64,000 nucleotides of DNA from Alistipes sp. CHKCI003 (lineage in GTDB: Bacteria; Bacteroidota; Bacteroidia; Bacteroidales; Rikenellaceae): positions 62,001-126,000 of the forward strand of contig NZ_FCNT01000059.1 in assembly GCF_900021155.1 (NCBI RefSeq), read 5' to 3'. A program made the position numbers and the translations under genes. The notes under the pieces were generated by a model. It did no database searches. It was not told where the DNA came from and saw only the letters and a list, made by a program, of their open reading frames with translations. The stretch's first letter is position 1; each line of letters starts with the position of its first letter. Shown piece by piece: positions 8,145-64,000 of the stretch.

Positions 8145-9350
8145 TTATTCCCTGCGCTTCACGCCGAGGCGCGGACAGCGGTGGAACTCTTTCGTGCGGT
8201 CGAAGAGATAGCGGTAGGTGGTGTGCATCTTGTGCTTCACGGCGCCCACGTAGGTTTCGATCATGCGGTTCATCACGGGGTTGAAGTCACCGATCCACGC
8301 CAGCTCCATCGTCTTGTACTGATTCTTGGTCTGTTCGAGGAACTCGTGCATCTTGACCATGATGGCCGATTCGACCCCCTTGCCGTGGAATTCGGGCGTG
8401 ATGCCGAAGATGATGCCGAAGATGCGGTCGCAGCTGCGGCTGACCTTCAGGTCCCACATGAGGCGCATTTTCTGCCAGAGCCCGAATTTGCCGTTGAATT
8501 TCCCGATCAGACGGTTGAGGTCGGGGACGGTGATGAAGAAGCCGATCGGTTCGTCGTTGAAATAGGCGAAATAGACGATGCGCGGGTCGATGATCGGCTT
8601 GAGCTGGCGCATCAGACCCAGCGCCTCCTCCTGCCCGAGGGGTTTGACGCCCGAGAAGAGCGCCCACGCCTTGTTGTAGATCATCCGGAAGTTTTCGGCG
8701 GCCTCCTCCAGATTCTTCATGTCGATGTTCTCGACGTGATAGCCCGGGGTGGCGTAGAGGTGTTTGGCGCGGTCGAAGATGCGCGGATTGGTCTCGAAGA
8801 TGTTGACCCGCCAGATGTAGGTGTGCTGGTTGAAATAGTTGCGGAATCCGTAGCTTTCGAACAGATCCTTGTAGTAGGGCGGGTTGTAGGGATTCTCGTA
8901 CAAGGGCTGGAATTCGTAGCCGTCGACCAGCAGCCCCCACCACGAGTCGCGGTTGCCGAAGTTCACGGGACCGTCCATCGCCTCCATGCCGCGGCTCGAA
9001 AGCCACATGCGGGCCGCGTCGAACATCAGATCGGCCGCCTGCTGATCGTCGATGCACTCGAAGAAACCGCAGCCGCCCGTGGGCTGTTCCTCGATGGCCG
9101 CCTTTTCGCGGTTGTAGAAGGCCGCGATGCGCCCCACGACGGCTCCCTTCCGGTCGCGGACCACCCAGCGGATCGCTTCGCCGTCGGCGAAGAGTTCGTT
9201 TTTCGCCGGATCGAACACGGCGCGGATCGACGGATCGAGCGGGCATACCCAGTTGCGGTTGCCGCGGTAGATTTGTTTGGGCAGGTCGAGCCACTCGCGT
9301 TCGAGCGCCTCGGAGGTTACTTCCTGCAACGTATATTTGTCCGGTTTCAT
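8145..9350 (-). CDS. GNAT-like acyltransferase superfamily protein of unknown substrate
   Basis: This 401-residue cytoplasmic protein resembles a conserved Bacteroidota family annotated as GNAT N-acetyltransferase-like. Visible features are an N-terminal region with DLPKQIYRGNRNWVCPLD, a central tryptophan- and tyrosine-rich stretch (RDSWWGLLVDGYEFQPLYENPYNPPYY in pieces), and a C-terminal acyl-CoA-type fold with FNDEPIGFFITVPD and a GITPEFHGKGVESA segment resembling the acetyl-CoA loop. No substrate can be assigned. A TATCTTTG -7 box on the minus strand (9375-9382) lies 25 bases upstream of the start, and gcvT follows, so it leads a two-gene unit. Confidence 0.75.
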   Translation of the reverse strand: MKPDKYTLQEVTSEALEREWLDLPKQIYRGNRNWVCPLDPSIRAVFDPAKNELFADGEAIRWVVRDRKGAVVGRIAAFYNREKAAIEEQPTGGCGFFECIDDQQAADLMFDAARMWLSSRGMEAMDGPVNFGNRDSWWGLLVDGYEFQPLYENPYNPPYYKDLFESYGFRNYFNQHTYIWRVNIFETNPRIFDRAKHLYATPGYHVENIDMKNLEEAAENFRMIYNKAWALFSGVKPLGQEEALGLMRQLKPIIDPRIVYFAYFNDEPIGFFITVPDLNRLIGKFNGKFGLWQKMRLMWDLKVSRSCDRIFGIIFGITPEFHGKGVESAIMVKMHEFLEQTKNQYKTMELAWIGDFNPVMNRMIETYVGAVKHKMHTTYRYLFDRTKEFHRCPRLGVKRRE

Positions 9351-9374
9351 CCGATTTATTTTGAGTTATCTTAG

Positions 9375-13894: not shown

Positions 13895-14660
13895 CGTGTG
13901 CGGTGCAGGCTTCTGCCCGGTGGTTTGGGGGGGGTGTCCGCCGCTTCCGGAGTATATGCCCCATCCGCTTCCCGATCGTGTGCCCGGCAGGTTGCTTTAC
14001 GATTGCTCCTGCTTCTTTCTGAGGACCTATTCTCGTCGCATTTCGGCATGTGCTTCCGTCTGCTTTCGGCGTGGATGACGCCGTCCGGTTTCAGATCGTA
14101 TGCTTCCGACCGTTTTTCGACCGTTTTCGACCGGGGGATTCCCTCGCTTCATGCGGACTATCTTGTGGTCGCTGCCGGTGCGTATTCTTCGGGTACTGCT
14201 CGGCAAGACTGTCTTCGTGCGTTCGGGATCGCTTTGCCGGTTTTGCGCCGCTCGTTTGCGATTCCGTTACGTCGTTTCTCTGTGCTCTACTTCTGCGTGC
14301 ATGCCGAATTTCGTTGCAGCCGCTGAAAAACAGCTGCGCACCTTCCAATCCTCCCGGTTCTTGTTCCGTCCGCGTGCGCACCGTGTCGGATCTTCTGGCC
14401 TGTCGGATTATCGGCTTCGCAAAGACTTCGGCCCGCAGTTCGTCGCCGCACAGCACAGCGGGACCTTTACGCCGAGACCCGTGCATGGATCCGCTCGGCG
14501 CCCGACGGCGGACGCGCCGAATCGTCGTAAATAGACTTCACATCTGTTGTCTTCGGCTCATTGGGCCGGCGCAAAAAAATCCGTACCGCCGCTCGCAGCG
14601 CGTGGAAAGCGTGCATAAACTATATTCTTTGTGCGTGGGGAAGGGACCCGAACCCTCGAA
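13895..14660. other. Long intergenic stretch upstream of the recombinase, no gene seen
   Basis: About 770 bases separate gdhA from the polysaccharide locus recombinase. Both strands contain open frames up to about 210 codons, but the products are Cys/Arg/Ser-rich with no recognisable domain. An 8-G run lies at 13927-13934. I see no tRNA or att-like duplication. It may be decayed sequence at the locus boundary. Confidence 0.5.
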
Positions 14661-14667
14661 TCGTTTC

Positions 14668-14675
14668 TATTTTTG
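14668..14675 (+). promoter_or_regulatory. Candidate promoter -7 box for the recombinase
   Basis: TATTTTTG fits TAnnTTTG and lies 28 bases before the recombinase ATG. No good -33 TTTG is seen at the right distance, so the assignment is tentative. Confidence 0.45.
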
Positions 14676-14703
14676 TCCGATTTTAGGATAAAAAAGACCG
14701 ATT

Positions 14704-15750
14704 ATGACAAGTAAAAAATTGCAGATGGAGAACTTCGCTTCATCCATGCGCGGATGTTCGGTCCGTCAGTTGCGCGACGCACTGCTCGTGCTGGATCGTA
14801 AGTTCGGATTGTTCGAAACCATGATGTCGGGACATGCACTGGTGCAGAACGATGCGCAGACCTCTTTCGTCCGGTATGCCGAGTCGCTGGCGGACGAGAT
14901 GCAGGCACAGGGGCGTTTCAAAACGGCACAGGCATACCGATCGGCGGTGAAGAGTCTGACGACCTGCTTCGGACGCGAGGAGATCGCTCTGGACCGCATA
15001 GATGCGGCATCCATGGGCAACTATCAGACATGGCTGCTGCGGCGGGGCGTAACGTTCAACACCGTGTCTTATTACATGCGCATTCTGAGGGCCATATACC
15101 GGCGGGCCGTGCGGGCCGGACTGACACGGTCGGACGATCCCTTTCGGGAGGTCTATACGGGAACGGGCCGTACGCGGAAGCGTGCGGTCGACGCCGAATT
15201 GCTCTCCGTGCTCCGCATGACCGAATTCCCCGACAGCCGGTTGCGGCTCGCCCGGGATCTTTTTCTGTTCAGTTTCTACACGCGGGGCATGTCGTTCGTG
15301 GATATGGCTTACCTGCGTAAAGAGGATGCCGCGGGCGGCGCGATCGTCTATTTTCGGCGCAAAACCGGTCGACAGCTAACGATCCGGATCGAACCCTGCA
15401 TCAAGGAGATCATCGACCGCTATGCGCCCGTCGCCGGCACGACTCCCTATCTGCTTCCGATTCTCTCGGCGACGGAGCCGGCTGCGGCTTTTCGCCAGTA
15501 CCGCAGCGCCTTGGTATGCTTCAACCGCCGTCTGAAAGAGATTTCACGCCTGCTGAGGCTGGAATGCGGACTGACCTCCTATACCGCGCGCCATACGTGG
15601 GCGACGACGGCCTATCGGCGGCATGTCCCTACGCAGGTGATTAGCGAGGGGCTCGGGCACGGTTCGGAACGCACGACGCGCATTTACCTCGCAGCATTCG
15701 AACAGTCGGAGGTCGACGAGGCGAACCGGAGGATACTGGAAATTCTTTGA
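14704..15750 (+). CDS. Tyrosine recombinase, probable promoter invertase
   Basis: This 348-residue site-specific recombinase has an N-terminal SAM-like DNA-binding domain (about residues 50-140) and a C-terminal catalytic domain. The catalytic residues are visible: Arg194 (FYTRGMSF), Lys220 (RRKTGR), Arg296 in SYTARHTW (Tyr293 where many relatives have His), His319 (LGHG) and nucleophile Tyr328 (RIYLAAF). It ends 8 bases before a perfect 23-bp inverted repeat that recurs 313 bases later. Tyrosine recombinases beside invertible promoters are known in Bacteroidota, so inversion of that segment is its likely job. No transposition genes or integration signs flank it. Confidence 0.9.
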   Translation: MTSKKLQMENFASSMRGCSVRQLRDALLVLDRKFGLFETMMSGHALVQNDAQTSFVRYAESLADEMQAQGRFKTAQAYRSAVKSLTTCFGREEIALDRIDAASMGNYQTWLLRRGVTFNTVSYYMRILRAIYRRAVRAGLTRSDDPFREVYTGTGRTRKRAVDAELLSVLRMTEFPDSRLRLARDLFLFSFYTRGMSFVDMAYLRKEDAAGGAIVYFRRKTGRQLTIRIEPCIKEIIDRYAPVAGTTPYLLPILSATEPAAAFRQYRSALVCFNRRLKEISRLLRLECGLTSYTARHTWATTAYRRHVPTQVISEGLGHGSERTTRIYLAAFEQSEVDEANRRILEIL

Positions 15751-15758
15751 ATTGTATC

Positions 15759-15781
15759 CCTCTGTGCAAGAGGTAGAAAAA
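15759..15781 (+). repeat. Left inverted repeat (IRL) of the invertible segment
   Basis: The 23-bp sequence has the core CCTCTGTGCAAGAGG followed by TAGAAAAA. Its exact reverse complement is at 16095-16117. The core is itself a dyad, CCTCT and AGAGG around a 5-base centre, which is the usual shape of a tyrosine recombinase crossover site. Confidence 0.9.
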
Positions 15782-15796
15782 GCAGATTTCGCCGCA

Positions 15797-15826
15797 CAAA
15801 ATTAAGATTTATTTCAGGAAAACAAA
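15797..15826 (-). promoter_or_regulatory. Promoter inside the invertible segment, facing left
   Basis: On the minus strand, TTTG (15826-15823), an 18-base spacer, then TAATTTTG (15804-15797) give a good match to the Bacteroidota promoter. In the present orientation, transcription would begin near 15790 and run through IRL into the 3' end of the recombinase gene as antisense RNA. I see no equally good promoter on the plus strand of the segment. Confidence 0.75.
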
Positions 15827-15981
15827 CTCAAACAGCGGTTTTTTTCCGCATTGAATGTTTTTTATAATACGCCGCAGTCGACGGACAGGCTGAACAAATT
15901 CCGCGTACTTCCCGGAATTCGATACTTGCGCATTGCAGCTATTTGTCGTTTCATCGTTTTCTGCTTTGGTATTATCCGAAG

Positions 15982-16061
15982 TTGTGCAGTCCGCAGTCAT
16001 CCGACTGCTATTCAGCGCTTTCAGTACCGGAAATAACCTCCGTTGGCTGCGGACTGCGCAA
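15982..16061. repeat. Nested dyad inside the invertible segment
   Basis: TTGTGCAGTCCGCAG (15982-15996) is matched in inverted orientation by CTGCGGACTGCGCAA (16047-16061) with one mismatch and 50 bases between. A further short dyad, GCAGTC-ATCC-GACTGC, overlaps the left arm. These could form a hairpin, bind a regulator, or be accessory recombination sites. Confidence 0.6.
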
Positions 16062-16094
16062 CCGGCGGCAGCTATCGGCGATTCCGATCTCCTG

Positions 16095-16117
16095 TTTTTC
16101 TACCTCTTGCACAGAGG
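16095..16117 (-). repeat. Right inverted repeat (IRR) of the invertible segment
   Basis: Exact reverse complement of IRL (15759-15781), with the core CCTCTTGCACAGAGG on the plus strand. It lies 138 bases upstream of the upxY start codon, so the ON transcript would carry an untranslated leader of about 170 bases. Confidence 0.9.
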
Positions 16118-16255
16118 TAAACCGAAAATGTCAGAGATGCAGACAGATTGTTTCCGTCGAAAAGCGGCGAAGTTCCGCAGGCGCGCATGGTCCGGTCAGA
16201 ACTCGGGGTCATGTAGGAATGGTCGTGTGGCATGTGGAATGATTGTGTGAGTTAA

Positions 16256-16774
16256 ATGGCTGATAAACAGCTTCAATGGATCGCCGCAAGCACGCGCTGC
16301 AACCACGAGGTTTCCCTGCGCGATTACTTCCGCGAGAACGGGCATGAGCACTTCATTCCCACCCGTTTCGTGTTGCAGCGTTTCGGGAGTGTCGTGCGGG
16401 AGGTGGAGAAAGCCGTCATTCCCAATCTGATATTCCTGCGAGTCGGCTGGGGGGAGGCTTTCCGCATCCAGCAGCGCTGGCCCAACAAGATGACTTACAT
16501 CCGTTCGAAAGACAAACGCATTCTCGTGATCCCGGAGCCGGAGATGGATCGGTTCATCCGCGTGATGACCGAAATGCAGGATCGGGCGAAGCTGCTGGCC
16601 GACGTCTTCGTAACGGGCGATCGGGTGGCCGTCCGCGAAGGACCCTTGGCGGGTGTCGAGGGGGTGCTGGCCGACTGCGGCGGAAAACGCGAATTCGTCG
16701 TACGCATCGGGACGTTGTGCGCCGTGAGCGTCCGAATCCCCAGAAGCAACCTCATCCGGTTGCCGAAGCAATAA
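16256..16774 (+). CDS. upxY: UpxY-family transcription antiterminator
   Basis: This 172-residue protein is a NusG/RfaH-like factor of the UpxY type. These factors act on the 5' leader of their own polysaccharide operon to prevent premature termination. The NusG N-terminal domain begins with the typical QWIAASTRCNHEVSLRDYF (compare WYvvrt...KE in NusG), contains PNLIFLRVGW, and the KOW-like C-terminal part reads VFVTGDRVAVREGPLAGVEGVL. It is the first gene after the invertible segment and is followed closely by the polysaccharide genes. No upxZ homologue is recognised next to it. Confidence 0.92.
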   Translation: MADKQLQWIAASTRCNHEVSLRDYFRENGHEHFIPTRFVLQRFGSVVREVEKAVIPNLIFLRVGWGEAFRIQQRWPNKMTYIRSKDKRILVIPEPEMDRFIRVMTEMQDRAKLLADVFVTGDRVAVREGPLAGVEGVLADCGGKREFVVRIGTLCAVSVRIPRSNLIRLPKQ

Positions 16775-16782
16775 ATCGCATT

Positions 16783-17577
16783 ATGCATAAAACGTTGGAT
16801 AAACTCTATGCCGGTATCGGAGAGGCGGGTACCGGCAGGAGCGGTGTCGGAGAGCTGTGCGCTCTTGCGGCGCTATCCGCCAACCTGTACACCTTGGTCT
16901 GCGTGGCTCCGTGGCTCGATGAAGAGTACGGATCCGCTGGAGAACTGCGCAGGAGGATACGGAAGGTGGCGGCCGCCTTGGTCTGCCGGTTGGAGCGGGA
17001 AACGGACGACCTCGAACGTGTCCGCGGCGTAAATGCGCTGTTCGTGCTTTCGAACACGGCGGCCGAATACGAACAGAAGATGCTCGACCTTGCGGAGCCG
17101 GTGCTCGGGCGCTACGAAGCAGGCCGTCTGACGGCGGAGGCCGCTCTTTTCGAAGCGGAAGTGTGCCGGATGATGTGCAACTGTTATTGTCTGGTGCAGG
17201 ATGAGGCGCTTGCCGCAGATGCGCGCACGATCATCTCCGGATGGACGGCAGTCTCGCCGTCCGGGACGGAGGGGCTTCCGGTCGGGGTGGCGCTCGCACG
17301 GTGCGAAGCCGCTGCGGCTTACGCAGACTACACGGGCGATGAACGTTTCCGCGCGGTGAGGAGCGCCGGAGATTACGGTACGGAGGAGCCGGAGACGATC
17401 TGCCGTATGCTCGAACTGCACCTCAGATGCGGGGCTGTATCCGATGCGGAAGCTCTGTGCGATCGGATCGAGCAGGATGCTGCGACAGGAACGGACAGAA
17501 CCTCGCAGGTGTATCGGTTGGCGGCAAAAGCCGCATGCGAACTTTTGCGGATAAAAGATGCCGGTTTTTCGGAATAG
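16783..17577 (+). CDS. Protein of unknown function after upxY
   Basis: I do not recognise this 264-residue protein. The start is taken at the ATG 8 bases after upxY; an in-frame upstream start would overlap upxY by 58 bases. It is predicted soluble and mostly helical, with no signal peptide, and has a run of cysteines (CRMMCNCYCL) near residue 130. Its position matches that of upxZ in Bacteroides polysaccharide loci, but I see no similarity to UpxZ and it is longer. The next gene begins 20 bases before its stop, so it belongs to the operon. A regulatory or assembly role is possible but unsupported. Confidence 0.75.
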   Translation: MHKTLDKLYAGIGEAGTGRSGVGELCALAALSANLYTLVCVAPWLDEEYGSAGELRRRIRKVAAALVCRLERETDDLERVRGVNALFVLSNTAAEYEQKMLDLAEPVLGRYEAGRLTAEAALFEAEVCRMMCNCYCLVQDEALAADARTIISGWTAVSPSGTEGLPVGVALARCEAAAAYADYTGDERFRAVRSAGDYGTEEPETICRMLELHLRCGAVSDAEALCDRIEQDAATGTDRTSQVYRLAAKAACELLRIKDAGFSE

Positions 17578-18574
17578 TCGCTCGCTGCTGAGCGTCATCT
17601 TGTCGTTCGTGTGCTTCCTGTCCGCCGCGGGATGCAGCAAGGGTGAGCCCATCTACCGAATCGAACTGCTCGATTGCGATCCGCTATTGAACGACTCGTC
17701 GGAGTATATGGTCGTCTTGGGTGATTTGCAGGAATATACGGGGAATCAACACTATCGGCCGTGGCTTCAGCATACGATGGACTGGATCTGGTCGCAGTGC
17801 CGTTACGGCCGTAAAATACGGAGTATTCTTCAGGTCGGCGACGTAACCTCGAATAATTCCGTCGGCAACTGGGAGGTTTTCATGTATCATTACAGGCAGG
17901 TCGGAAAGATCGTTCCGACGATCGTCTGTGCCGGCAATCACGATTATACGTGGGGCGAAGACGGTTGGCAGATCGAGGACCGCTATTCGACATTGTTTTC
18001 GGATTACGTTACTTACGAGGGGACACCGGCAGAGGTGATCGAACGCTTCGAGCCGGAGCGGACGGAAAATGTCGTGATCGGCCTGACGCTGGGCGGGGAG
18101 CGCTGCAACGTACTCGTTCTCGAGTACGGAGCTCGGGACGAGGTGGTACAGTGGGCGGCCGCATATGTAGCTGCACATCCGGATCAGCGGTTCATACTGC
18201 TGACACACGAATTTCTGACGGCAAAAGGCGTGCGGATCTCCAAAGGGTCGTCGGCCGAAGCGCAGTTTGTCGATCAGTCCTGCAATACGCCGGAGGAAAT
18301 TTGGGAGAAGCTGGTTTTCGGGAACGACAACATCGTGTGCGTGCTGTGCGGACACAACGGATTCGTGCAGCGCCTCTTTTCGCCGAATGCGACGGGACGC
18401 GAGGTGCCCCAGATTTTGTTCAACGTTCAATATCAGGCGAACGGCGGGGATGGATGGATCCAGTTGTGGGAATTTTCACCGGACAGGGACACCGTCGTCG
18501 TCAGAACTTACAATACGGTTCGCAACGAAGTTCTTCAGGATCCGAACGGGACGTTCGAATTCGGATGGAGATGA
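17558..18574 (+). CDS. Metallophosphoesterase lipoprotein
   Basis: This 338-residue calcineurin-like metallophosphoesterase has a lipoprotein signal peptide (hydrophobic stretch, lipobox LSAAGC near residue 26), so it is probably anchored in the periplasm or outer membrane. Metal-ligand motifs appear in order: GDLQEY, VGDVTSNN, CAGNHDYTW, LLTHEF and LCGHNG. The first motif lacks the usual DxH spacing. It overlaps the unknown gene upstream by 20 bases. Its presence in a locus encoding CDP-linked transfer suggests it could trim phosphoesters from the polysaccharide or its precursors, but the substrate is not known. Confidence 0.85.
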   Translation: MPVFRNSRSLLSVILSFVCFLSAAGCSKGEPIYRIELLDCDPLLNDSSEYMVVLGDLQEYTGNQHYRPWLQHTMDWIWSQCRYGRKIRSILQVGDVTSNNSVGNWEVFMYHYRQVGKIVPTIVCAGNHDYTWGEDGWQIEDRYSTLFSDYVTYEGTPAEVIERFEPERTENVVIGLTLGGERCNVLVLEYGARDEVVQWAAAYVAAHPDQRFILLTHEFLTAKGVRISKGSSAEAQFVDQSCNTPEEIWEKLVFGNDNIVCVLCGHNGFVQRLFSPNATGREVPQILFNVQYQANGGDGWIQLWEFSPDRDTVVVRTYNTVRNEVLQDPNGTFEFGWR

Positions 18575-18620
18575 TGCCGACGAGGCATCCCCGGTTGCGC
18601 GAAGCAAATATGGAATAGAT

Positions 18621-20450
18621 ATGCAAGCAATCATTTTGGCGGCCGGAATGGGGCGCCGACTGGGAGACCTGACGCGCAGGAACACCAAGTGCATGATCGA
18701 GGTGAACGGGATACGGCTGATCGACCGGTTGTTGGGCCAACTCTCGACACTCGGACTCAGGCGGATCGTGCTGGTCGTCGGGTACGAAGGGGCTCGCCTG
18801 CGCGAACACGTGGGGACCGAATACGGCGGGTTGCCCGTCGAATATGTCGAGAATCCGATCTACGATAAAACCAATAACATCTATTCGCTGGCGCTGGCCA
18901 AGGAGTTTTTGCAGCAGGACGATACGCTGCTGGTCGAATCGGATCTGATTTTCGACGACTCGCTTTTCCCGATGCTTCTCGATAGTCCCTATAAGAATGC
19001 GGCTCTTGTGGCTAAATACGAGAGTTGGATGGATGGAACGATGGTCCGGCTGGACGAGGAGAACAATATCGTGAACTTCATTCCGAAGAAAGCCTTCAAG
19101 TACGAGGATACGGATACATACTACAAGACGGTCAACATCTATAAGTTCAGCAGGGAATTTTCGGTAGACCGCTACGTTCCTTTTCTGGAAGCCTATACGC
19201 GGGCCCTCGGGTTCAACGAATATTACGAACAGGTGCTCCGCGTCATCACGCTGCTCGATTCGTGCGATTTCAAGGCCCTCCCCTTGCGTGAGGGACAGAA
19301 GTGGTACGAAATCGACGATGTGCAGGATTTAAGGATCGCCGAGACCCTCTTTGCGGATACCGCGGACCGGTTGCGGAAGTATCAGCAGTGCTACGGCGGA
19401 TATTGGCGTTTCCCGTCGATGCTGGATTTCTGCTATCTGGTGAATCCCTATTTTCCGTCGGGCCGCATGGTCGAAGAGATGAAAGCCAATTTCGAAACCC
19501 TGCTGCGCGAGTATCCTTCGGGCATGGAGGTGAACTCCATGCTCGGAGCCAAGTATTTCGGCATCCGGCAGGAATACGTGTGCGTAGGAAACGGAGCGGC
19601 GGAGCTCATCAAGAGTCTCATGAGATGCATTACGGGCGATGTAGGGGTCGTTTATCCTACTTTCGAGGAGTATCCGAACCGGCTGGAACCGGAGCGTATC
19701 GTGGCCTATGTGCCCGAAAACGCTGATTTCGCCTACACGGCCGCCGATCTGACGGCCTTTTTCGGCAGCCGCCGGATCGAAGCGCTGTTGCTGATCAATC
19801 CGGACAATCCCTCGGGCAATTACATTCCGAAGAATGAGGTGTTGGAGTTGGCGGTTTGGTGTGCCGGACGGGGAGTCCGACTTGTGGTCGACGAATCGTT
19901 CGTCGATTTCTCCGAAGATTATGCCTCCGATTCTCTGCTGTGCGACGAGACGCTCGAAACGCATCCCGAGCTGGTCGTGATGAAGAGCATTTCGAAATCA
20001 TACGGTGTGCCGGGGCTCCGGCTGGGAGTTGCAGCATCGGCCGATGCAAGGCTGATCGCATGGATGAAAAAAGATGTCCCGATTTGGAACATCAACTCCT
20101 TCGCCGAATTTTACATGCAGATATTCGGGAAGTACGAAGCGGATTACCGGCGTGCGTGTGCGAAGTTCCTGACGGAAAGGGCCCGTTTCTTTTCGGACCT
20201 GAAGAGCGTGCCGTTTCTGCGGGTCGTTCCTTCGCAGGCCAACTATTTCCTGTGCGAGGTGCGAGGCGGCCTTACCGCTCACGGACTGACGCGGGAATTG
20301 CTCGACCGGTATCGCATTTTAATCAAGGACTGCACTTCGAAAAAAGGCTTTACCGACGGTCGTCAGTATGTCCGGATCGCCGTGCGGAACCGGACGGACA
20401 ACGAACGGTTGATCGAAGCGCTGAACGGAATCGAAACACACGGTTTATGA
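18621..20450 (+). CDS. Fusion: LicC-like nucleotidyltransferase and class I/II PLP aminotransferase
   Basis: This 609-residue protein joins two enzymes. Residues 1 to about 240 are a sugar-phosphate-type nucleotidyltransferase (MQAIILAAGMGRRLGDLTRRN, KCMIEVNG), closest in look to LicC-type CTP:phosphocholine cytidylyltransferases. The rest is a PLP enzyme of the HisC/CobD kind (NPDNPSGNYIPK, VVDESFVDFSED, PLP lysine in KSISKSYGVPGLRLG). The start is at the ATG at 18621; the frame is open further upstream but overlaps the phosphoesterase gene. Similar fusions are known for activation of aminoalkyl phosphates or phosphonates. The product here is unknown. It is coupled by ATGA to the next gene. 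Confidence 0.85.
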   Translation: MQAIILAAGMGRRLGDLTRRNTKCMIEVNGIRLIDRLLGQLSTLGLRRIVLVVGYEGARLREHVGTEYGGLPVEYVENPIYDKTNNIYSLALAKEFLQQDDTLLVESDLIFDDSLFPMLLDSPYKNAALVAKYESWMDGTMVRLDEENNIVNFIPKKAFKYEDTDTYYKTVNIYKFSREFSVDRYVPFLEAYTRALGFNEYYEQVLRVITLLDSCDFKALPLREGQKWYEIDDVQDLRIAETLFADTADRLRKYQQCYGGYWRFPSMLDFCYLVNPYFPSGRMVEEMKANFETLLREYPSGMEVNSMLGAKYFGIRQEYVCVGNGAAELIKSLMRCITGDVGVVYPTFEEYPNRLEPERIVAYVPENADFAYTAADLTAFFGSRRIEALLLINPDNPSGNYIPKNEVLELAVWCAGRGVRLVVDESFVDFSEDYASDSLLCDETLETHPELVVMKSISKSYGVPGLRLGVAASADARLIAWMKKDVPIWNINSFAEFYMQIFGKYEADYRRACAKFLTERARFFSDLKSVPFLRVVPSQANYFLCEVRGGLTAHGLTRELLDRYRILIKDCTSKKGFTDGRQYVRIAVRNRTDNERLIEALNGIETHGL

Positions 20451-21358
20451 AAATCATTACGGCCGAACAAATCGAGAGTTTGCACATCGCTCCGGCGGAA
20501 TGCGTCGAATGGGTGAAAGACGCCTTCCTGCTCAAGAATCGGTGCCAGCTGCCGGCTAAAATGTCCGTGCATCCTGCCGGCAACGATTTCTTCACCACCA
20601 TGCCCTGTCTGTTGCCCGATGAGTGCCACCGTTTCGGCGTGAAGGTCGTCTCGCGCATTCTCGGCAGAAAACCCGCGCTTAAGAGCGATCTGATGCTCTT
20701 CGACAGTTCGAACGGAGAATTGCTGGCTTTGGTCGATTGCGATTGGATTACGGCGATGCGGACCGGTGCCGTGGCGACGCTCGCCATCAGGACCTTTCGG
20801 TCCGCACGTGCGAAGACCTACGCTTTCGTGGGATTGGGAAGCACGGCCCGCGCGACCTTGTCGTGTCTGCTCGCTACGTCGGGACACGAACAACTCCGCA
20901 TCCGTTTGTTCCGCTATAAGGATCAGGCTGAAAAGACAATCGAGAGCTTCGCTTCGTATCCCGATGTCGCCTTCGAAACGGTGGATTCGATGGCACAACT
21001 GGCGGACGGGGCCGATGTGCTGGTCTCCTGCATTACGGATGCCGCCGGATTGCTGGTCGAGGACGATTCGTTGTTCAAACCCGGGGTTCTGGTCGTTCCG
21101 GTCCATACGCGCGGATTCCAGAACTGCGATCTGTGCTTCGACAAGGTCTTTGCTGACGACACGGATCATGTGCGGGGATTCCGCTATTTTCAGCAGTTCA
21201 GGCAGTTTCACGAATTCGCCGAAGTTCTGTCCGGAACGTGTCGCGGACGCGAAAGCGACACGGAACGCATCCTGTCCTATAACATCGGTCTGGGACTGCA
21301 CGACGTTTATTTTGCGAACCGGATCTATCGGCTTCTGTACCCGCAATGCAACCTCTGA
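20447..21358 (+). CDS. Ornithine cyclodeaminase/mu-crystallin family protein
   Basis: This 303-residue NAD(P)-dependent enzyme belongs to a family that includes ornithine cyclodeaminase, ketimine reductases and alanine dehydrogenases. Supporting motifs are the N-terminal QLPAKMSVHPAGNDFFTTMP, the substrate/cofactor region ALVDCDWITAMRTGAVATLA, the Rossmann GLGSTARATL, and VLVSCITDAAG. Its start overlaps the fusion gene by 4 bases (ATGA), implying coupled action: it may make or reduce the amino compound that the fusion enzyme activates. The exact reaction cannot be read from sequence. Confidence 0.85.
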   Translation: MKIITAEQIESLHIAPAECVEWVKDAFLLKNRCQLPAKMSVHPAGNDFFTTMPCLLPDECHRFGVKVVSRILGRKPALKSDLMLFDSSNGELLALVDCDWITAMRTGAVATLAIRTFRSARAKTYAFVGLGSTARATLSCLLATSGHEQLRIRLFRYKDQAEKTIESFASYPDVAFETVDSMAQLADGADVLVSCITDAAGLLVEDDSLFKPGVLVVPVHTRGFQNCDLCFDKVFADDTDHVRGFRYFQQFRQFHEFAEVLSGTCRGRESDTERILSYNIGLGLHDVYFANRIYRLLYPQCNL

Positions 21359-22776
21359 AGAAGCGCACCCTTCGGGGAATCTTGTGGAACGGCGTGCAAC
21401 GCTTCGGTACGCTGGCCGTCTCGTTAGCCGCCAATTTGGTACTGGTCCGGATGCTGACGCCGGAAGATTTCGGCTGCATCGGGATTTTGCTGGTTTTCGT
21501 CGCGGTGTCGCAAACGCTCATCGACGGAGGATTCACGGCAGCGCTGATCCAGAAAAAGGAGGTCTCGCAAACCGATTATTCCACCGTTTTCTATTGGAAT
21601 CTGATTCTTTCCGTACTCCTAATCGGAGCTCTTGCGCTCGTCTCGCCACTCGTCGCCGCCTTTTACCGGATCGACGCGCTGAACGATATTCTGAGGGCGC
21701 AGAGCGTCGTGTTGCTCATCAATTCGTTCTGCATCGTACAGACGGCGCAGCTGATTAAAAAACTGGAGTTCAAGGTGCTTGCCATCCGATCGGTCGCCGC
21801 GGCGATGATCGGGGCGATCGTCGCCATACTGTTGGCTTACAGGGGATGGGGCGTCTGGAGTTTGGTCGTCAAGGAGTTGGTCGCATCGTCCGTGGGGGCA
21901 GTGTTGCTCTGGTCGTTCTGCAAATGGCATCCGTCGCCGATTTTCAGTTGGCGGTCTTTTCGGGGGATGTTCCGCTTCGGTTCGATGATATTCGTTTCCG
22001 ATGTCATAAACACGCTCTATCAGAATATGCAGGCATTGATTATAGGCCGTGCTTTTTCCGTTCAGGAGTTAGGTTATTACAGTCAGGCGCGCAAGCTGGA
22101 AGAGGTACCGGTCAACGGCGGAACTACCGTGCTCACGCAGGTATTGTTCCCCGTTTATTCGTCGATTGCCGATCAATACGAACGGTTGAAATCGTTGGTG
22201 CGCAAGAACGTGGTGTTGATTACCTATCTATCCTTCTCGATCATGTTTTTGCTGATCGTCATCGCCCGTCCTCTGCTGCTGGTCCTCTTTACGGACAAGT
22301 GGGCGCCGGCAATCCCGCTTTTTCAGATTCTCTGTTTCGAGGGAGTATTCTATCCGCTTAATTGCGCAAATGCCTTGCTGTTCAAATCGTTGGGTAATGG
22401 TAAAGTTTATTTTATTTTGCAGTCGGTAAAACGTTTGATTTCGCTGTTGATGATTCTCTATTCTGTGAGATTCGGACTTTATGGCATGATGTGGGCGATT
22501 GCGGCGATGGGTATTCTCTCCTATGTGATCAATCTGGTTTTTACCCATCGGATTTTCGGATACCGTGTCCGCGAGCAGTTGTCCGACATTCTTCCGAACC
22601 TTTTGTTGTCAGTGGTGGTCGCTACGACGACATGGGGAATTTTGCGTCTGTTGGATTTCGGGGATCATCTTGTGCATATTGTAACTGGAAGTCTCCTTTT
22701 CGGATTTCTTTTTATGGCCCTTTCGCGCGTATTCGGAATGAAAGGGTTCAGACTTATGTTGGATCTATGGAAATAA
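21346..22776 (+). CDS. wzx: Polysaccharide flippase, WzxC-like
   Basis: This 476-residue integral membrane protein of the MATE-like Wzx superfamily probably flips lipid-linked repeat units across the inner membrane. About 12-14 hydrophobic segments are visible. The N-terminal block GILWNGVQRFGTLAVSLAANLVLVRMLTPEDFG is characteristic of the WzxC branch. It overlaps the upstream gene by 13 bases and the downstream gene by 10. With the Wzy-like gene at 26261 it marks the locus as Wzx/Wzy-dependent. Confidence 0.9.
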   Translation: MQPLKKRTLRGILWNGVQRFGTLAVSLAANLVLVRMLTPEDFGCIGILLVFVAVSQTLIDGGFTAALIQKKEVSQTDYSTVFYWNLILSVLLIGALALVSPLVAAFYRIDALNDILRAQSVVLLINSFCIVQTAQLIKKLEFKVLAIRSVAAAMIGAIVAILLAYRGWGVWSLVVKELVASSVGAVLLWSFCKWHPSPIFSWRSFRGMFRFGSMIFVSDVINTLYQNMQALIIGRAFSVQELGYYSQARKLEEVPVNGGTTVLTQVLFPVYSSIADQYERLKSLVRKNVVLITYLSFSIMFLLIVIARPLLLVLFTDKWAPAIPLFQILCFEGVFYPLNCANALLFKSLGNGKVYFILQSVKRLISLLMILYSVRFGLYGMMWAIAAMGILSYVINLVFTHRIFGYRVREQLSDILPNLLLSVVVATTTWGILRLLDFGDHLVHIVTGSLLFGFLFMALSRVFGMKGFRLMLDLWK

Positions 22777-23186
22777 AGAACAATCTGAAACGTCATCTTG
22801 TCGGAACCGTCAAAGGTTGGCGGGTGGCCAAAGCATCCCGGTACGCTGCGCGGGAGGAGGTGGCATACGGTTTCAAAATCCGTTTGGAAGAGCTTGTGGG
22901 GGACGAAAAAGAACGTTTGACCAGAGTGGGAGAGAGTGTGGTTGCCTATTTCGGACGTGTGGTCGCTACGGCGCTCGAAGCGCACAGACAGATTCCGACC
23001 TGTGCTTTTGCCGGTTGGGATCTGGCTTTGGCGAAGGACGGCCGTGTGCTGTTGATCGAAGCTAATCTGACGTGGCCTGAAATATTTGGTGCGCAGATGT
23101 GCTGCGGTCCTATTTTCGGTGAACGGACGGACGAGGTGATTGATTTTCTGAAAAGACCGCGCAAGCAGAGCCGGCTCTTTTATTAG
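22767..23186 (+). CDS. Short ATP-grasp fragment (sugar-transfer associated type), possibly truncated
   Basis: The 139-residue product matches only the C-terminal part of sugar-transfer-associated ATP-grasp proteins: AGWDLALAKDGRVLLIEANLTWPEIF parallels IGWDIALGEMGPIFIEGNDNWEI in the full-length protein encoded immediately downstream. The ATP-binding N-terminal and central domains are missing, so it is unlikely to be an active ligase alone. It may be a remnant of a duplication or a partner subunit. The start overlaps wzx by 10 bases and the stop abuts the next ATG, so it is translated with the operon if real. Confidence 0.65.
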   Translation: MEIKNNLKRHLVGTVKGWRVAKASRYAAREEVAYGFKIRLEELVGDEKERLTRVGESVVAYFGRVVATALEAHRQIPTCAFAGWDLALAKDGRVLLIEANLTWPEIFGAQMCCGPIFGERTDEVIDFLKRPRKQSRLFY

Positions 23187-24311
23187 ATGGCCATGAGAAA
23201 GAAATTGCTGGCATTCACGGAGCGGCTGTTGGCTCTGTTTTTGGACAATCTCTATGTAAAGCCGAAGAATGTGTGCCGCTTGCTGCTGCATCCCGGGCGG
23301 TTCCTCGGTCGAAGCTATTTCCCCGAACAGAAATCCAAAAGCAAGACGGCTGTCCTGGCCGATCAGTTGCGGAATATCCTCCTGTACGGAGATGTGGATC
23401 ATTTTTACTATTTCTACGGTTTGGACGTGAAGCGATCCGGCCGAAGGAGGGACTACGTGCATTATGCCGTTTTCTCGAAACGTCGGGATCGGTTGAATCT
23501 TTCCTCGCCCTTCAACAGTTCGTGCATACTCAGAAATAAATTGTATTTCGGCATATTCGCACGGGCCGTCGGCTTGACCACGCCTGCCAATGTGGCCTAT
23601 GTGCGTATGCCGGATGTGCTGCTGCTCGAAACCGGAGAGCACGTCTCGTTGGAAAAATTCGTCGACACGTGCGAAGGAAATTTGTTCTGCAAACTGCTCG
23701 ACGGAGAATGCGGGACGGGTATTTTCGAACTCGAAATCCGCGGCAGAAGGATTTTTATCGACGGTGCCGAGGCGGATGCCGGGATTTTGCACGCTCGCCT
23801 GTGCGGCGGCGTCTTTCTGATGCAGGAGCGCGTGAAGCAGCATCATTCGCTGGATGAATTGTATGCAGGTGCGGTCAACACGGTTCGATTGGTAACGGTG
23901 CGCGATCTCAGAAGCGGCGGAATCGAGGTGCTGCCGTCGATCTTGCGCGTGGGAGCGAACGGCAGCAGGGTGGACAACACTTCGCAGGGCGGCATTGCGG
24001 TCGGATTCGATCTGCAAACCGGAAGATTGAATGAGTTGGGATTTTTCAAACCCGAATTCGGACTTACGACGACGGTTCATCCCGATTCGGGAATCAGGTT
24101 CGGAACGTTCGTGCTGCCCCACCTCGACACGATGATCGAGCAGGCCAAATATTTCCATTCGTTTCTCGGCATGCATTCGATCGGCTGGGACATCGCGCTC
24201 GGCGAGATGGGACCGATATTCATCGAGGGCAACGACAATTGGGAGATCAACGGACATCAGGATTATGAACACGGCTTGATGGCGGACTTCCGCAGATTGT
24301 TTTATGAATAA
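23187..24311 (+). CDS. Sugar-transfer-associated ATP-grasp protein
   Basis: This 374-residue protein fits the ATP-grasp family found in capsule and exopolysaccharide loci. It has the lysine-containing segment FCKLLDGECGTGIF, an acidic metal-binding stretch GWDIALGEMGPIFIEGN, and QERVKQHHSLDELYAGAVNTVRLVTV. Such proteins probably ligate an acyl or aminoacyl group to sugar residues, though the substrate is unknown. The start directly follows the previous stop; an alternative ATG is 6 bases later. The stop overlaps licD by 8 bases. Confidence 0.8.
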   Translation: MAMRKKLLAFTERLLALFLDNLYVKPKNVCRLLLHPGRFLGRSYFPEQKSKSKTAVLADQLRNILLYGDVDHFYYFYGLDVKRSGRRRDYVHYAVFSKRRDRLNLSSPFNSSCILRNKLYFGIFARAVGLTTPANVAYVRMPDVLLLETGEHVSLEKFVDTCEGNLFCKLLDGECGTGIFELEIRGRRIFIDGAEADAGILHARLCGGVFLMQERVKQHHSLDELYAGAVNTVRLVTVRDLRSGGIEVLPSILRVGANGSRVDNTSQGGIAVGFDLQTGRLNELGFFKPEFGLTTTVHPDSGIRFGTFVLPHLDTMIEQAKYFHSFLGMHSIGWDIALGEMGPIFIEGNDNWEINGHQDYEHGLMADFRRLFYE

Positions 24312-25125
24312 TTCGAGTCTACAACAGGAGTTGCGGGCGCGGTTCAACCCCGACGGATCGCTTCTGCGCAGGCATCAGCTCCGGATGCTGGAGATGCTGA
24401 CCTACATAGACGGTGTGTGCGTGCAACACGATATTCCCTATTGGCTCAGTTCGGGCACTCTGTTGGGGGCGGTTCGCCACGGAGGATTCATTCCGTGGGA
24501 CGACGACGTGGACATCGAACTGCTGCGCAGGGATTACAAGAGACTGCTTCGGGTGCTGCGTACCGAAAAAGAGGGCAGGTACCGTTTGCAGACCCATAGC
24601 ACGGACAACGGTTATTTTTTCCCGTTCGCCAAATTGCGCGATATGCATTCGGTGCTGCGGGAAAACGACGACATCGACCTCGGGTTTGCCTATCGAGGGA
24701 TATACATCGATATTTTTCCGTTGGAGGTCAACAAGTACCCCCTTTCTAAAGCGCTGGGCTGGTTTCATCTGCGGGTGCAACGGCTGTCGGCCGGAAACAG
24801 CGGCCGCAGTCGGTTCGGACGTGCGGCGGCGAACGTGCTGTTCGGATGCGAACGATATGCGATTTGGCCGCTGTTCAGAGCCGTATACGGATTATGGCCC
24901 CGCAATCCGGTAAACCATACGTTCGGGGTCTGTTTTTATAAGAGCCGTGATCTTCGAACGGTTTTTCCGCTGAAGAGAATCCCGTTCGAAGGGGCGATGT
25001 TGCCGGTCCCCTGCGATACGGATACTTATCTGAGGCACATCTACGGGGATTATGAGAAACTGCCGCCGCTCGACAGGATCGTTCCGCATACGGCCGACGT
25101 AATCATTTACGAACAAGAGCGATGA
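24304..25125 (+). CDS. licD: LicD-family phosphotransferase
   Basis: LicD-type enzymes move a phospho-substituent (phosphocholine in known cases) from a CDP donor to a surface glycan. The 273-residue protein has the diagnostic LSSGTLLGAVRHGGFIPWDDDVDIE block at about residues 49-73, including the DDDVDIE metal motif, and the later PFAKLRDMHS and YIDIFPLE. Together with the LicC-like cytidylyltransferase fusion at 18621 it forms an activation-transfer pair. It overlaps neighbours on both sides (8 and 4 bases). The transferred group is not determined. Confidence 0.9.
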   Translation: MNNSSLQQELRARFNPDGSLLRRHQLRMLEMLTYIDGVCVQHDIPYWLSSGTLLGAVRHGGFIPWDDDVDIELLRRDYKRLLRVLRTEKEGRYRLQTHSTDNGYFFPFAKLRDMHSVLRENDDIDLGFAYRGIYIDIFPLEVNKYPLSKALGWFHLRVQRLSAGNSGRSRFGRAAANVLFGCERYAIWPLFRAVYGLWPRNPVNHTFGVCFYKSRDLRTVFPLKRIPFEGAMLPVPCDTDTYLRHIYGDYEKLPPLDRIVPHTADVIIYEQER

Positions 25126-26264
25126 AACTCGTTTATTGCATACCTTCGCTCGATTCGGCCGGCGGTACGGAGCGTGTGCTGACCAATAAGGTGAACTATC
25201 TGGCCGAACACTACGGTTGGGAAATCCATATCGTCCTGACCGAACGGCAGAAAGGAGCGCCCTATTTCCCGTTGCACCCCTCCGTGCGAATCGTGGAGCT
25301 GGATCTCGATTTCCGCGCGGATTACGGATGCGGCATCCTCGGCAAGTCCGTGGCGTATGTCCGTAAGATCCGCACATACCGTCGGGAGTTGGAAAAACTG
25401 TTGATGCATCTGCGGCCGGATATTACGACTTCGCTGCTGTCGCACGAAATCGACTTTCTGCATAAACTGCGGGACGGGAGCAAGAAAATCGGAGAGAATC
25501 ATTTTTACAAGGATTTTCGGCTCGGATTCATTGCCATGGGAAGACGATCCTCGCTGTTGCGCCGCTGTGTGGCGTGGCTTCGCAACCGTCAGTTGATCGC
25601 GTGCGTGCGGCGTCTGGACGAGTTGGTCGTGCTGACTGAGGATGACGCCCGCGCGTGGCACGAGGTGCGTTATAAAACCGTGATCCCGAATGCACTGACC
25701 TGTTTTCCGGAAAGAGTCTCGGACGGCGGAGCAAAGCGGGTCGTGGCTGCCGGAAGGTACGTGCCGCAGAAAGGATACGATCTGCTGCTGAGGACGTGGG
25801 AGAAGGTGCGGCGGGAATTTCCCGATTGGGAGCTCGTCATTTACGGCGACGGCGAGGCCCGGCCCGAACTCGAACGTTATGCGGCCACGCACGGATTGGA
25901 CGATGTCCGCTTGGAGCATGCCGTGAACGATGTGTTCGACCGTTTTGCGGAGAGCTCCCTTTCGGTCCTTTCTTCGCGTTTCGAAGGTTTCGGGCTGGTG
26001 GTCATCGAGGCGATGGCCTGCGGACTGCCCGTGGTGGCTTTCGACTGCAAATGCGGCCCCGGCGAAATCATTCGCAACGGCGAAGACGGGTTGCTGGTGC
26101 CGGCAGGCGATTGCGAGGCGCTGGCCGAAGGGATGGAGCGGCTGATGCGGGACGAGGGGCTCCGGCGCCGAATGGGGCGGGCCGCCCGCAGCAATGTGGA
26201 ACGTTATCGGATGGAGCGCGTGATGAAGCAGTGGGTGGCGCTGTACGAACGGCTGCTGGTATGA
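25122..26264 (+). CDS. Glycosyltransferase family 4-like
   Basis: This 380-residue GT-B glycosyltransferase has an N-terminal acceptor domain beginning MKLVYCIPSLDSAGGTERVL and a C-terminal donor domain with VAAGRYVPQKGYDLLLRTWEKV, the ALSSRFEGFGLVVIEAMACGLPVVAF-type nucleotide-sugar site, and GEDGLLVPAGD. It adds one sugar to the repeat unit at the cytoplasmic face. The gene overlaps licD and the polymerase gene by 4 bases each. Donor sugar and linkage cannot be predicted. Confidence 0.9.
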   Translation: MKLVYCIPSLDSAGGTERVLTNKVNYLAEHYGWEIHIVLTERQKGAPYFPLHPSVRIVELDLDFRADYGCGILGKSVAYVRKIRTYRRELEKLLMHLRPDITTSLLSHEIDFLHKLRDGSKKIGENHFYKDFRLGFIAMGRRSSLLRRCVAWLRNRQLIACVRRLDELVVLTEDDARAWHEVRYKTVIPNALTCFPERVSDGGAKRVVAAGRYVPQKGYDLLLRTWEKVRREFPDWELVIYGDGEARPELERYAATHGLDDVRLEHAVNDVFDRFAESSLSVLSSRFEGFGLVVIEAMACGLPVVAFDCKCGPGEIIRNGEDGLLVPAGDCEALAEGMERLMRDEGLRRRMGRAARSNVERYRMERVMKQWVALYERLLV

Positions 26265-27319
26265 GGGAGTTGAAAAGAGCCGTTCTGATTCTGCTCATAG
26301 CCACGCTGTACGTGAAATTCGTCGTGCAGATCGTGCTGGACGAGAGCAATCTGCTGCTGGATCTGCTGCTTTACATGCTGCTGATCGCAGGATTGGTCGA
26401 CCGTAAGTTCCGACCCGAATTTTTCGTCGTCGTCCTTTTTGCCGTTATTTCGGTCCTGAATCCGGCAGCCAGAAATATCTTCCTGATATTTGCCTCGGTC
26501 TATGCGCTTCGGGAGTTTTCCATACGGGAACTGGCTTCGATCAATCTCTGTATGCAGACATTGGTCTTCGGCGCCACGGCCCTGATGCTCTGGGCGGGGA
26601 TAACCCATTCCGAGATGTTCGAACAATCGCTTCTCGATCAGCGCGAGCGCTGGGACTTCGGCTACGGAAATCCGAATACGTTCGCTCTGTTCGTCTATTC
26701 GATCATGGTGAACGCCTATGTATACTTCGCCCGGCAGTACGGGAGGATGCTCTCTCTGCTTCTTTTCCTGACGGGGATAGGAGTCTATTGTTATACGAAA
26801 TCCCGCACGTTTTTAGTTGCCACTTTGGTTTTGCTTTTGGTGCATTGGTGTGTGAGGAATCGGGTGGTTCGGTCGGTCATTCTCAAATTCAAGGGAATTC
26901 TGTATTTGATTCCGATTGTCTTGATGGGATGTATTCTGTACATGTCCCGCTATTCCGGACAATTTCCGTTGCTCAACCTCGTGTTCTCGGGTCGGCTGGA
27001 ACTTTACAGCGTATTCTTGGGGAGTATCGGAAAAACGGCCTATTTGTTCGGGACTCCGCTGGTGAACGAAGAGACGATCGACAGCTCTTATCTGCATATC
27101 CTGTTCGAAGGCGGAGTTTTGGCTTTCGTAATTTTTTATGTGCTTTATGTCGTAACCGTCCGACGGATGAATCGGAGCACGATCGGCGTATTACCCGTTT
27201 TGGCCGGGTTTCTCGTGTTCGGATTGTCCGAATCCCTATTCACGTTCGTGTTGATTTTCGGAAATATGATCATTTGGTCGATCTTATACGACTCATATCT
27301 GAATCGCTCCCATCCTTGA
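26261..27319 (+). CDS. wzy: Probable O-antigen/capsule polymerase (Wzy-like)
   Basis: This 352-residue membrane protein has around ten hydrophobic helices and a central periplasmic loop with a RERWDFGYGNPNTFALFVYS segment that resembles Wzy/O-antigen ligase family loops. Wzy proteins are poorly conserved; the call rests on topology, this GNPN-type motif and its place beside Wzx. The start at 26261 overlaps the glycosyltransferase stop by 4 bases; the frame is open further upstream but inside that gene. Confidence 0.75.
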   Translation: MRELKRAVLILLIATLYVKFVVQIVLDESNLLLDLLLYMLLIAGLVDRKFRPEFFVVVLFAVISVLNPAARNIFLIFASVYALREFSIRELASINLCMQTLVFGATALMLWAGITHSEMFEQSLLDQRERWDFGYGNPNTFALFVYSIMVNAYVYFARQYGRMLSLLLFLTGIGVYCYTKSRTFLVATLVLLLVHWCVRNRVVRSVILKFKGILYLIPIVLMGCILYMSRYSGQFPLLNLVFSGRLELYSVFLGSIGKTAYLFGTPLVNEETIDSSYLHILFEGGVLAFVIFYVLYVVTVRRMNRSTIGVLPVLAGFLVFGLSESLFTFVLIFGNMIIWSILYDSYLNRSHP

Positions 27320-27346
27320 GAGCGGATCGCAAATACTGGTTTGGTT

Positions 27347-28450
27347 ATGAGATTATTCGTAGACGCGCATGCTTTCGACGGAGGTATTTCGCAGGGAGTA
27401 ACGACTTATATCGAGGGACTTTATAAGGAGTTGGTGAAAACAGCGTCCGACATCGATTTTTATTTTGCCGCACAGGATACGATGCGTCTGGAAAGTATCT
27501 TCGGTACGAGAGAGAATGTCCATTACGTGAAATACGGTTCGAAAAACAAGTACCGGCGTTTGGCTTTCGAAATACCTCGTATCGTCCGGCGACTCGGAAT
27601 TGATGCGGCGCATTTCCAATATACGTCGCCCTTGGTCAAAAGATGCAAGGAGATCGTTACGATACACGATGTCCTGTTTCTGGACTATCCGCAGTATTTT
27701 CCCGCATCCTATTATCACAGCAAGAAATGGCTTTTCGGAAGGTCCGCGCGCAGGGCCGATCTTCTGCTTACGGTTTCCGAATACAGCAAAGAACGTCTCG
27801 AACGCTTTTACCGTCCGCGAAAGCCCGTTCGAATAACGCCCAATGCGGTGGACGAAAGGTACGGACTGGTCCGGCGAAGCGAGGCGGAAGCCTTGCTCGA
27901 CGGACGGGTCGGAAAATATATCCTTTACGTGAGCCGTGTGGAACCCCGCAAAAATCACTTGCTGCTGCTGCGGGCCTATGTGGAAGGGCGGTTCTACGAA
28001 CGCGGCTATGCGCTTGTTTTCATCGGTAAGACATCCATTCCCGTACCCGAGTTGCACAGGTATTGCGAGAAACTGCCTGAAGATATAAGGCAAAACGTGT
28101 TTTTTTTCGAACAGAAGCCGTTCGAAGAGTTGCTCGCATGGTACAAGTGCGCCTCGCTTTTCGTCTATCCGTCTATTGCCGAAGGTTTCGGAATCCCGCC
28201 GTTGGAGGCGGCCGTAGCGGGTGTCCCTTGTATCTGTTCGAACCGCACGGCGATGCAGGATTTCCGCTTTTTCGGAGAGGGAACGTATGATCCCGAGGAT
28301 TTGGATCAGACGATCGAAAAAATCGAATTGGGCCTCAGTCCCGCTTTCCGCGATCCCGAACGGCTCGAAAGGATCCGGCAGGCGGTAGAGCGGAGATATG
28401 ACTGGGCATCCATCGCAAAGGAATATTATGCGTATTTGACCGACCTCTGA
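27347..28450 (+). CDS. Glycosyltransferase family 4-like
   Basis: This 367-residue GT-B enzyme begins MRLFVDAHAFDGGISQGVTTYIEG and contains TIHDVLFLDYPQYFP, the donor-domain segment LYVSRVEPRKNHLLLLRA, and YPSIAEGFGIPPLEAAVAGVPCICS. These are typical of family 4 mannosyl- or rhamnosyltransferase-like enzymes in polysaccharide loci. The ATG at 27347 is preferred over a TTG two codons earlier. A 27-base gap follows wzy. The sugar specificity is unknown. Confidence 0.9.
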   Translation: MRLFVDAHAFDGGISQGVTTYIEGLYKELVKTASDIDFYFAAQDTMRLESIFGTRENVHYVKYGSKNKYRRLAFEIPRIVRRLGIDAAHFQYTSPLVKRCKEIVTIHDVLFLDYPQYFPASYYHSKKWLFGRSARRADLLLTVSEYSKERLERFYRPRKPVRITPNAVDERYGLVRRSEAEALLDGRVGKYILYVSRVEPRKNHLLLLRAYVEGRFYERGYALVFIGKTSIPVPELHRYCEKLPEDIRQNVFFFEQKPFEELLAWYKCASLFVYPSIAEGFGIPPLEAAVAGVPCICSNRTAMQDFRFFGEGTYDPEDLDQTIEKIELGLSPAFRDPERLERIRQAVERRYDWASIAKEYYAYLTDL

Positions 28451-28576
28451 CATCGTCTAAGAGTCGGTACCGAACTTCTCTAATCCTTCAGCCGGACAGA
28501 TGGCCGATGTTGTCGGCTGTTGTCTCCGTACTTGCTGATAGGGTTGTCTGTCATTTCCGTTAATCCATTATTTCTT

Positions 28577-29017: not shown

Positions 29018-29027
29018 CCCTGAATTT

Positions 29028-63915: not shown

Positions 63916-64000
63916 ATGAGCGAAATTAGCAAACAGTGGTATGTAGTCCGCGCCGTAGGCGGCAAGGAAAATAAGGTGAAGGAGTATATCGAATCCGAAA
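63916..64000 (+). CDS. nusG: Transcription termination/antitermination factor NusG, 3' end outside window
   Basis: Only the first 28 codons are present: MSEISKQWYVVRAVGGKENK then VKEYIESE. The WYVVRAVGGKENKVKEYI stretch is the NusG N-terminal signature. The gene runs off the window end. It follows secE by 17 bases in the standard secE-nusG order. Confidence 0.92.
   Translation, partial: MSEISKQWYVVRAVGGKENKVKEYIESE

Follow-up and report, generated by a model that had tools for sequence, protein, structure and literature searches.

A probable recombinase-linked promoter inversion switch upstream of upxY and a polysaccharide locus in Alistipes sp. CHKCI003

The closest described systems come from other Bacteroidales. 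For resistance genes under invertible promoters, one study places the promoter directly after an invertase gene, often with upxY as the first gene downstream (PMC8748976). In B. xylanisolvens, capsule loci carry a 20-bp repeat around approximately 290 bp beside UpxY genes, with a tyrosine-type invertase before it, and in P. distasonis, 10 of 12 operons consist of an integrase, then a segment of 314 to 345 bp, and then a NusG gene (PMC12118408). Recombinase genes upstream of invertible promoters have been called frequent, and a promoter of a P. vulgatus polysaccharide locus flips although the adjacent recombinase is broken (PMC13114119). In another study, invertase groups were linked to inverton groups (PMC11892184).

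We analyzed a stretch of 64 kb from the genome of Alistipes sp. CHKCI003, referred to as the window, which contains a tyrosine recombinase gene, adjacent dyad-bearing inverted repeats, a predicted promoter inside them near one arm, and upxY and polysaccharide genes on the same strand. As in the Bacteroidales invertase loci (PMC8748976, PMC12118408, PMC13114119), an adjacent tyrosine-type invertase or integrase is combined with palindromic inverted repeats and a promoter region of the same consensus, followed by upxY (a NusG-like gene in P. distasonis) and polysaccharide genes. The segment measures 313 bp in the window, 290 bp in B. xylanisolvens, and 314 to 345 bp in P. distasonis (PMC12118408), whereas the repeat differs, being GTTACTTCTTAGGTAACGGA in B. 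xylanisolvens and CCTCTGTGCAAGAGGTAGAAAAA in the window. Unlike the P. vulgatus locus with its broken recombinase (PMC13114119), the window carries a recombinase whose reading frame is open.

B. fragilis provides two further comparisons. The Mpi promoters are invertible promoters before upxY, as is proposed for the window, but they depend on a serine recombinase, with one master enzyme for many sites, and on another repeat (PMC4747536, PMC8375218). Tsr19/BF2766 is a tyrosine recombinase that inverts a promoter located just downstream, ahead of an extracellular polysaccharide operon, an arrangement resembling that in the window; this enzyme also inverts a distant region (PMC4747536), whereas the window sites were found at their own locus only. 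An earlier note on this DNA had drawn a contrast between the distant serine recombinase of B. fragilis and the adjacent tyrosine recombinase of the window. This contrast is not new. The adjacent arrangement of tyrosine-type invertase, promoter, and upxY has already been published (PMC8748976, PMC12118408, PMC13114119), and therefore that view of the known systems was too narrow.

The recombinase gene of the window (14704 to 15750, plus strand) encodes a presumed DNA invertase of 348 aa that matches PF13102 (2e-15) and PF00589 (1.1e-7), in agreement with the earlier identification of a tyrosine recombinase beside the switch. Residues R194, K220, R296, H319, and Y328, which we take to be the catalytic residues, are invariant in this protein and nine relatives. 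The protein lies on a long branch of the tree, with an identity of at most 54% to any other recombinase among the matches listed, and the nearest solved structures are those of distant Xer and integron recombinases. NCBI invertase cluster 3b was absent from the NCBIfam matches of the 10 members of set A1, a result that may reflect a library lacking its HMM. Upstream of the gene, the region at approximately 14635 to 14665 looked tRNA-like by eye; neither ARAGORN nor Rfam reported anything at this position, and apart from itself the sequence preceding the recombinase gene had no match better than E 0.36 in this genome.

The inverted repeats, presumed to be the recombination sites, are perfect over 23 bp, with CCTCTGTGCAAGAGGTAGAAAAA at 15759 to 15781 (left, plus strand) and its reverse complement at 16095 to 16117 (right, minus strand), separated by a spacer of 313 bp; if the flanks are included, the pairing extends to 28 bp at 93%. 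Such a pair is far beyond chance. The runner-up perfect inverted pair in the whole 64-kb window, at a span below 2.5 kb, measures 15 bp, and the longest perfect pair in 10 block shuffles did not exceed 14 bp. The repeats are also unique in the genome (2.87 Mb, 105 contigs), where the first 18 bp with up to two mismatches occur at just these two places and a search for further site copies at this stringency returned none; at three mismatches, two matches were found, compared to one for a reversed-pattern control. The repeat begins with a dyad core, CCTCT-GTGCA-AGAGG, in which two 5-bp arms enclose an asymmetric 5-bp centre (15759 to 15773 in the left repeat and 16103 to 16117 in the right). A dyad with an asymmetric centre is the expected form of a tyrosine recombinase crossover site. 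The pattern NNTCT-N5-AGANN with palindromic arms occurs exactly twice in the 64 kb, both times in these repeats. The earlier claim of perfect 23-bp inverted repeats around 313 bp is confirmed, and the core that had been likened to a tyrosine recombinase site is present in both arms and of a type absent elsewhere in the window.

The segment enclosed by the repeats (15782 to 16094, no strand assigned) has a G+C content of 48%, compared to 59% for the window. The Bacteroidota promoter consensus comprises TTTG at -33 and TANNTTTGY at -7 (PMC8748976), and the strict search pattern was TTTG-N16-21-TAnnTTTG. Within 14001 to 17000, this pattern has a single sequence match, TTTG-N18-TAATTTTG, on the minus strand at 15826 to 15797, inside the segment and 15 bp from the left repeat; shuffled interiors contained a strict promoter in 9 of 2000 cases. 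Because the predicted promoter is aimed at the recombinase gene and faces away from upxY, the assembly would represent the OFF orientation. A scripted inversion moved it to 16050 to 16079 on the plus strand, approximately 180 bp before the start of upxY. Both the lone consensus promoter facing away from upxY and its position after inversion had been proposed in the earlier note, and both held, with no second strict match in 14001 to 17000.

The earlier note had called the segment free of genes, and this is probably right: a pair of ORFs that overlap each other and extend beyond the segment (105 and 99 aa, each starting with TTG) is taken for chance. An inner inverted repeat at 15981 to 16062 (no strand assigned) could form a hairpin with a 19-pair stem (RNA fold z -5.5). 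Its score of 13 is tied third among 76 class members, for which the median is 8; the window is unusually strong compared to the class, and the idea that such switches have a conserved hairpin component was rejected. A sigma-70 scan and a terminator scan gave one match each, where shuffles yield 0.5 and 0.7, and Rfam gave no match. From the right repeat to upxY runs a fixed leader (16118 to 16255, plus strand), presumably the 5' untranslated region, which is without a strict promoter of its own and has an unremarkable fold (z 0.72).

The transcription antiterminator gene upxY (16256 to 16774, plus strand) scores 114.7 bits with NF033644, above the curated cut-off of 100, and its earlier identification after the switch is thereby upheld. 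The second gene (16783 to 17577, plus strand) occupies the frequent upxZ position; as it matches no Pfam family at E 5, an identity as UpxZ is unsupported. The polysaccharide genes that follow (17558 to 31192, plus strand) comprise profile matches and genes without a match, and the contents include a phosphoesterase, a nucleotidyltransferase/aminotransferase, an ornithine-cyclodeaminase-like protein, a flippase, an ATP-grasp protein, LicD, three glycosyltransferases, a hexapeptide transferase, and a nucleotidyltransferase. ARAGORN called a tRNA-Ser at 28174 to 28256 inside a glycosyltransferase gene, probably falsely. Past the locus, the opposite strand carries housekeeping genes, for example RNase Y (34268 to 32721, minus strand). 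Counting ORFs to 31192 gave upxY and about 14 genes. The earlier note had placed upxY and at least 14 downstream genes under control of the switch; comparison with relatives supports this proposal well, flipping of this particular copy being very likely.

Related recombinases are often followed by similar repeats. At E <= 1e-60, matches to the recombinase were found at 83 places in 62 of 180 genus genomes, and 72 places (window included) were scored after 11 with less than 400 bp of downstream DNA had been dropped. An inverted pair scoring at least 14 and lying no more than 500 bp downstream of the recombinase stop codon was present in 42 of these 72 places, the window included, compared to 2 of 277 control stretches; two of the 42, L139 and L140, are identical in the downstream stretch. 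The other 30 places had no pair at this threshold. An UpxY ORF follows in eight of the 72 (window again included), and seven of the eight have a pair; the eighth, L114, has imperfect arms that fall below the threshold. The 11 places where fewer than 400 bp of contig remain downstream of the recombinase gene are L079, L086, L090, L091, L101, L113, L118, L121, L129, L130, and L144, and perhaps assemblies break at switches that are present in both orientations.

Similar results were obtained with named genomes, for which the best 80 loci were taken and 17 dropped, leaving 63 with enough downstream DNA. Among these 63, a repeat pair was found in 41, compared to 2 of 229 controls, and 22 were without a pair at the threshold. 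Among the matches listed, a pair and then an UpxY ORF occur in P. vulgatus ATCC 8482, B. rodentium, B. oleiciplenus, B. stercorirosoris, and P. faecalis, whereas L155, L156, L165, and L196 have an UpxY ORF but no pair. The order of recombinase, repeat pair, and UpxY ORF seen in the window recurs at two loci of Phocaeicola vulgatus ATCC 8482 (L161 and L193) and one of P. faecalis (L191), with recombinases 42 to 45% identical to that of the window. The UpxY ORF begins 494 to 496 bp after the recombinase stop codon in L161 and L193, compared to 505 bp in the window. The site sequence of these two loci differs from that of the window, whereas the P. faecalis site core, CCTCTGTGTAAGAGG, is one base off CCTCTGTGCAAGAGG.

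The genus and named sets overlap, and removal of duplicates left 124 distinct downstream stretches listed, of which 76 contain a pair. A perfect 5-5-5 dyad is present in an arm in 52 of the 76, compared to 69 of 3800 shuffled arms. A strict promoter was found between the repeats in 19 of the 76 listed and was not found in the remaining 57. All 19 promoters are within 43 bp of the arm at which they point, 15 of them at 5 to 25 bp; shuffled interiors yielded means of 0.98 promoters and 0.14 near ones. Recombinase kinship was considered as a predictor of the switch and proved not clean, with repeat-bearing and repeat-free loci mixed on the tree. The six genus recombinases nearest by identity (50 to 54%) have no pair (L065, L067 to L069, L071, and L074), and at 51% identity L147 lacks a pair and L152 has one; thus, kinship of the recombinase alone fails to predict a switch. 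In four loci (L073, L078, L082, and L115), the recombinase gene is followed by two left site copies and a single inverted copy on the right, and such three-site switches could allow more than two states.

The related segments were found in both orientations. In the 19 listed stretches with a strict promoter, the promoter points at the recombinase (OFF) in 10, the window included, and away from it (ON) in nine, several of which are close kin. Direct comparisons of relatives gave the same picture. For example, the flanks of L145 and L146 are collinear at 81% while the interior is inverted at 73%, and the interior of L157 is inverted relative to L158, L182, and L208 with both flanks collinear. 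L098 and L175, both located before an UpxY ORF, have opposite orientations and a collinear downstream flank, and L082 and L092, also before UpxY, show a shorter inverted match at the arm, again with a collinear downstream flank. In L098, the repeats are intact and UpxY-linked but the recombinase contains two stop codons, a state that may be compared with the broken P. vulgatus recombinase. DNA of the window segment itself occurs in one of the 180 genus genomes, its own, in one orientation, and a search of the other genomes among these 180 for a flipped copy found none. Collectively, these alignments argue strongly for natural inversion of switches of this class. Flipping of the window segment is very likely, as judged from the comparison with relatives that carry repeat pairs in opposite orientations, and the invertible promoter in an OFF state proposed in the earlier note draws its support from the same relatives.

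We therefore favor, with a probability of roughly 0.87, a site-specific inversion switch of upxY and the polysaccharide genes that is driven by the neighboring recombinase. In this model, recombination between the dyad cores of the inverted sites, carried out by the recombinase encoded beside them, would flip the 313-bp segment and the one promoter that it contains. As assembled, the switch would be OFF, with the promoter firing leftward into the recombinase gene at its 3' end. After inversion to ON, the promoter would drive upxY and about 14 following polysaccharide genes from 16050 to 16079, and UpxY is expected to relieve early termination in the leader.

The neighboring recombinase is likely the acting enzyme. 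Its part is one that we infer, since the genome has 20 PF13102 matches (the neighbor included) and one serine recombinase gene, and since in P. vulgatus the promoter inverts although the recombinase next to it is broken (PMC13114119). The same facts would suit a segment flipped by a recombinase encoded elsewhere, with the neighbor inactive or serving other sites. We regard this as unlikely: the neighbor retains its presumed catalytic residues, the sites are found at no other place in the genome, and recombinase genes linked to such repeats are seen repeatedly across the order. In addition, the window arms read CCTCTGTGCAAGAGGTAGAAAAA and do not contain the Mpi-type repeat ARACGTTCGTN, in the form quoted in PMC8375218.

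A locus in which the repeats persist after inversion has ceased, either locked OFF or read from another promoter, would account for the single orientation known for the segment and might fit the long branch of the recombinase. Arms that are identical over 23 bp, an open recombinase frame with the presumed catalytic residues kept, and a region (14001 to 17000) with no other strict promoter make such a relic quite unlikely. It is very improbable that the repeats are a terminator or a protein-binding pair and that the promoter match is due to chance. Although the left core can be folded as a small hairpin and a chance promoter match in the interior is expected in about 9 of 2000 cases, relatives have the same dyad type at the same place and with the same promoter geometry, and their segments are inverted between species.

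An inversion switch driven by its neighbor, the reading preferred here, raises a further idea that we put forward only tentatively and consider rather doubtful. The -7 element of the OFF promoter ends 47 bp from the recombinase stop codon, and antisense transcription reaching the 3' end of the neighboring recombinase gene might lower recombinase output and stabilize the OFF state. If this were true, the orientation of the switch would set its own flipping rate. The other OFF loci (10 of the 19 loci that have a strict promoter are OFF, the window included) share this geometry, and the effect would then hold for the class in general. Among the papers listed by a literature search, antisense transcription came up only in one on Clostridioides difficile.

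The genome contains four UpxY matches, and upxY at 16256 to 16774 is the only one of the four beside which a related recombinase gene was found together with a repeat pair of the same type. The other three were considered as switches and rejected, with no related recombinase detected by tblastn at E 1e-3 in stretches of 10, 10, and 17 kb. No long repeat pair was found beside these three genes except a 16-bp inverted pair in the stretch L062 (5656 to 5671 and 5743 to 5758), approximately 420 to 520 bp upstream of another UpxY ORF; its sequence is unrelated, and a second pair at 9267 to 9373 repeats part of it. The fourth, weaker UpxY match begins at the right end of the window (63937 to 64000) and runs beyond it, spanning G000:C70:125937-126419 in contig coordinates, and the 17 kb searched contained no related recombinase.

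The locus in the window adds a probable further switch to those known from Bacteroidales, one that is set apart by its site sequence and its divergent enzyme. Among the papers listed in a literature survey, no title or abstract opening described such a switch in Alistipes. The site rule NNTCT-N5-AGANN, drawn from the comparative set (76 of 124 listed stretches), provides a search key for switches of this class. The switch would turn surface-sugar genes on or off, and it adds a divergent lineage, found in a gut Alistipes, to the recombinases linked to locally encoded capsule phase variation.
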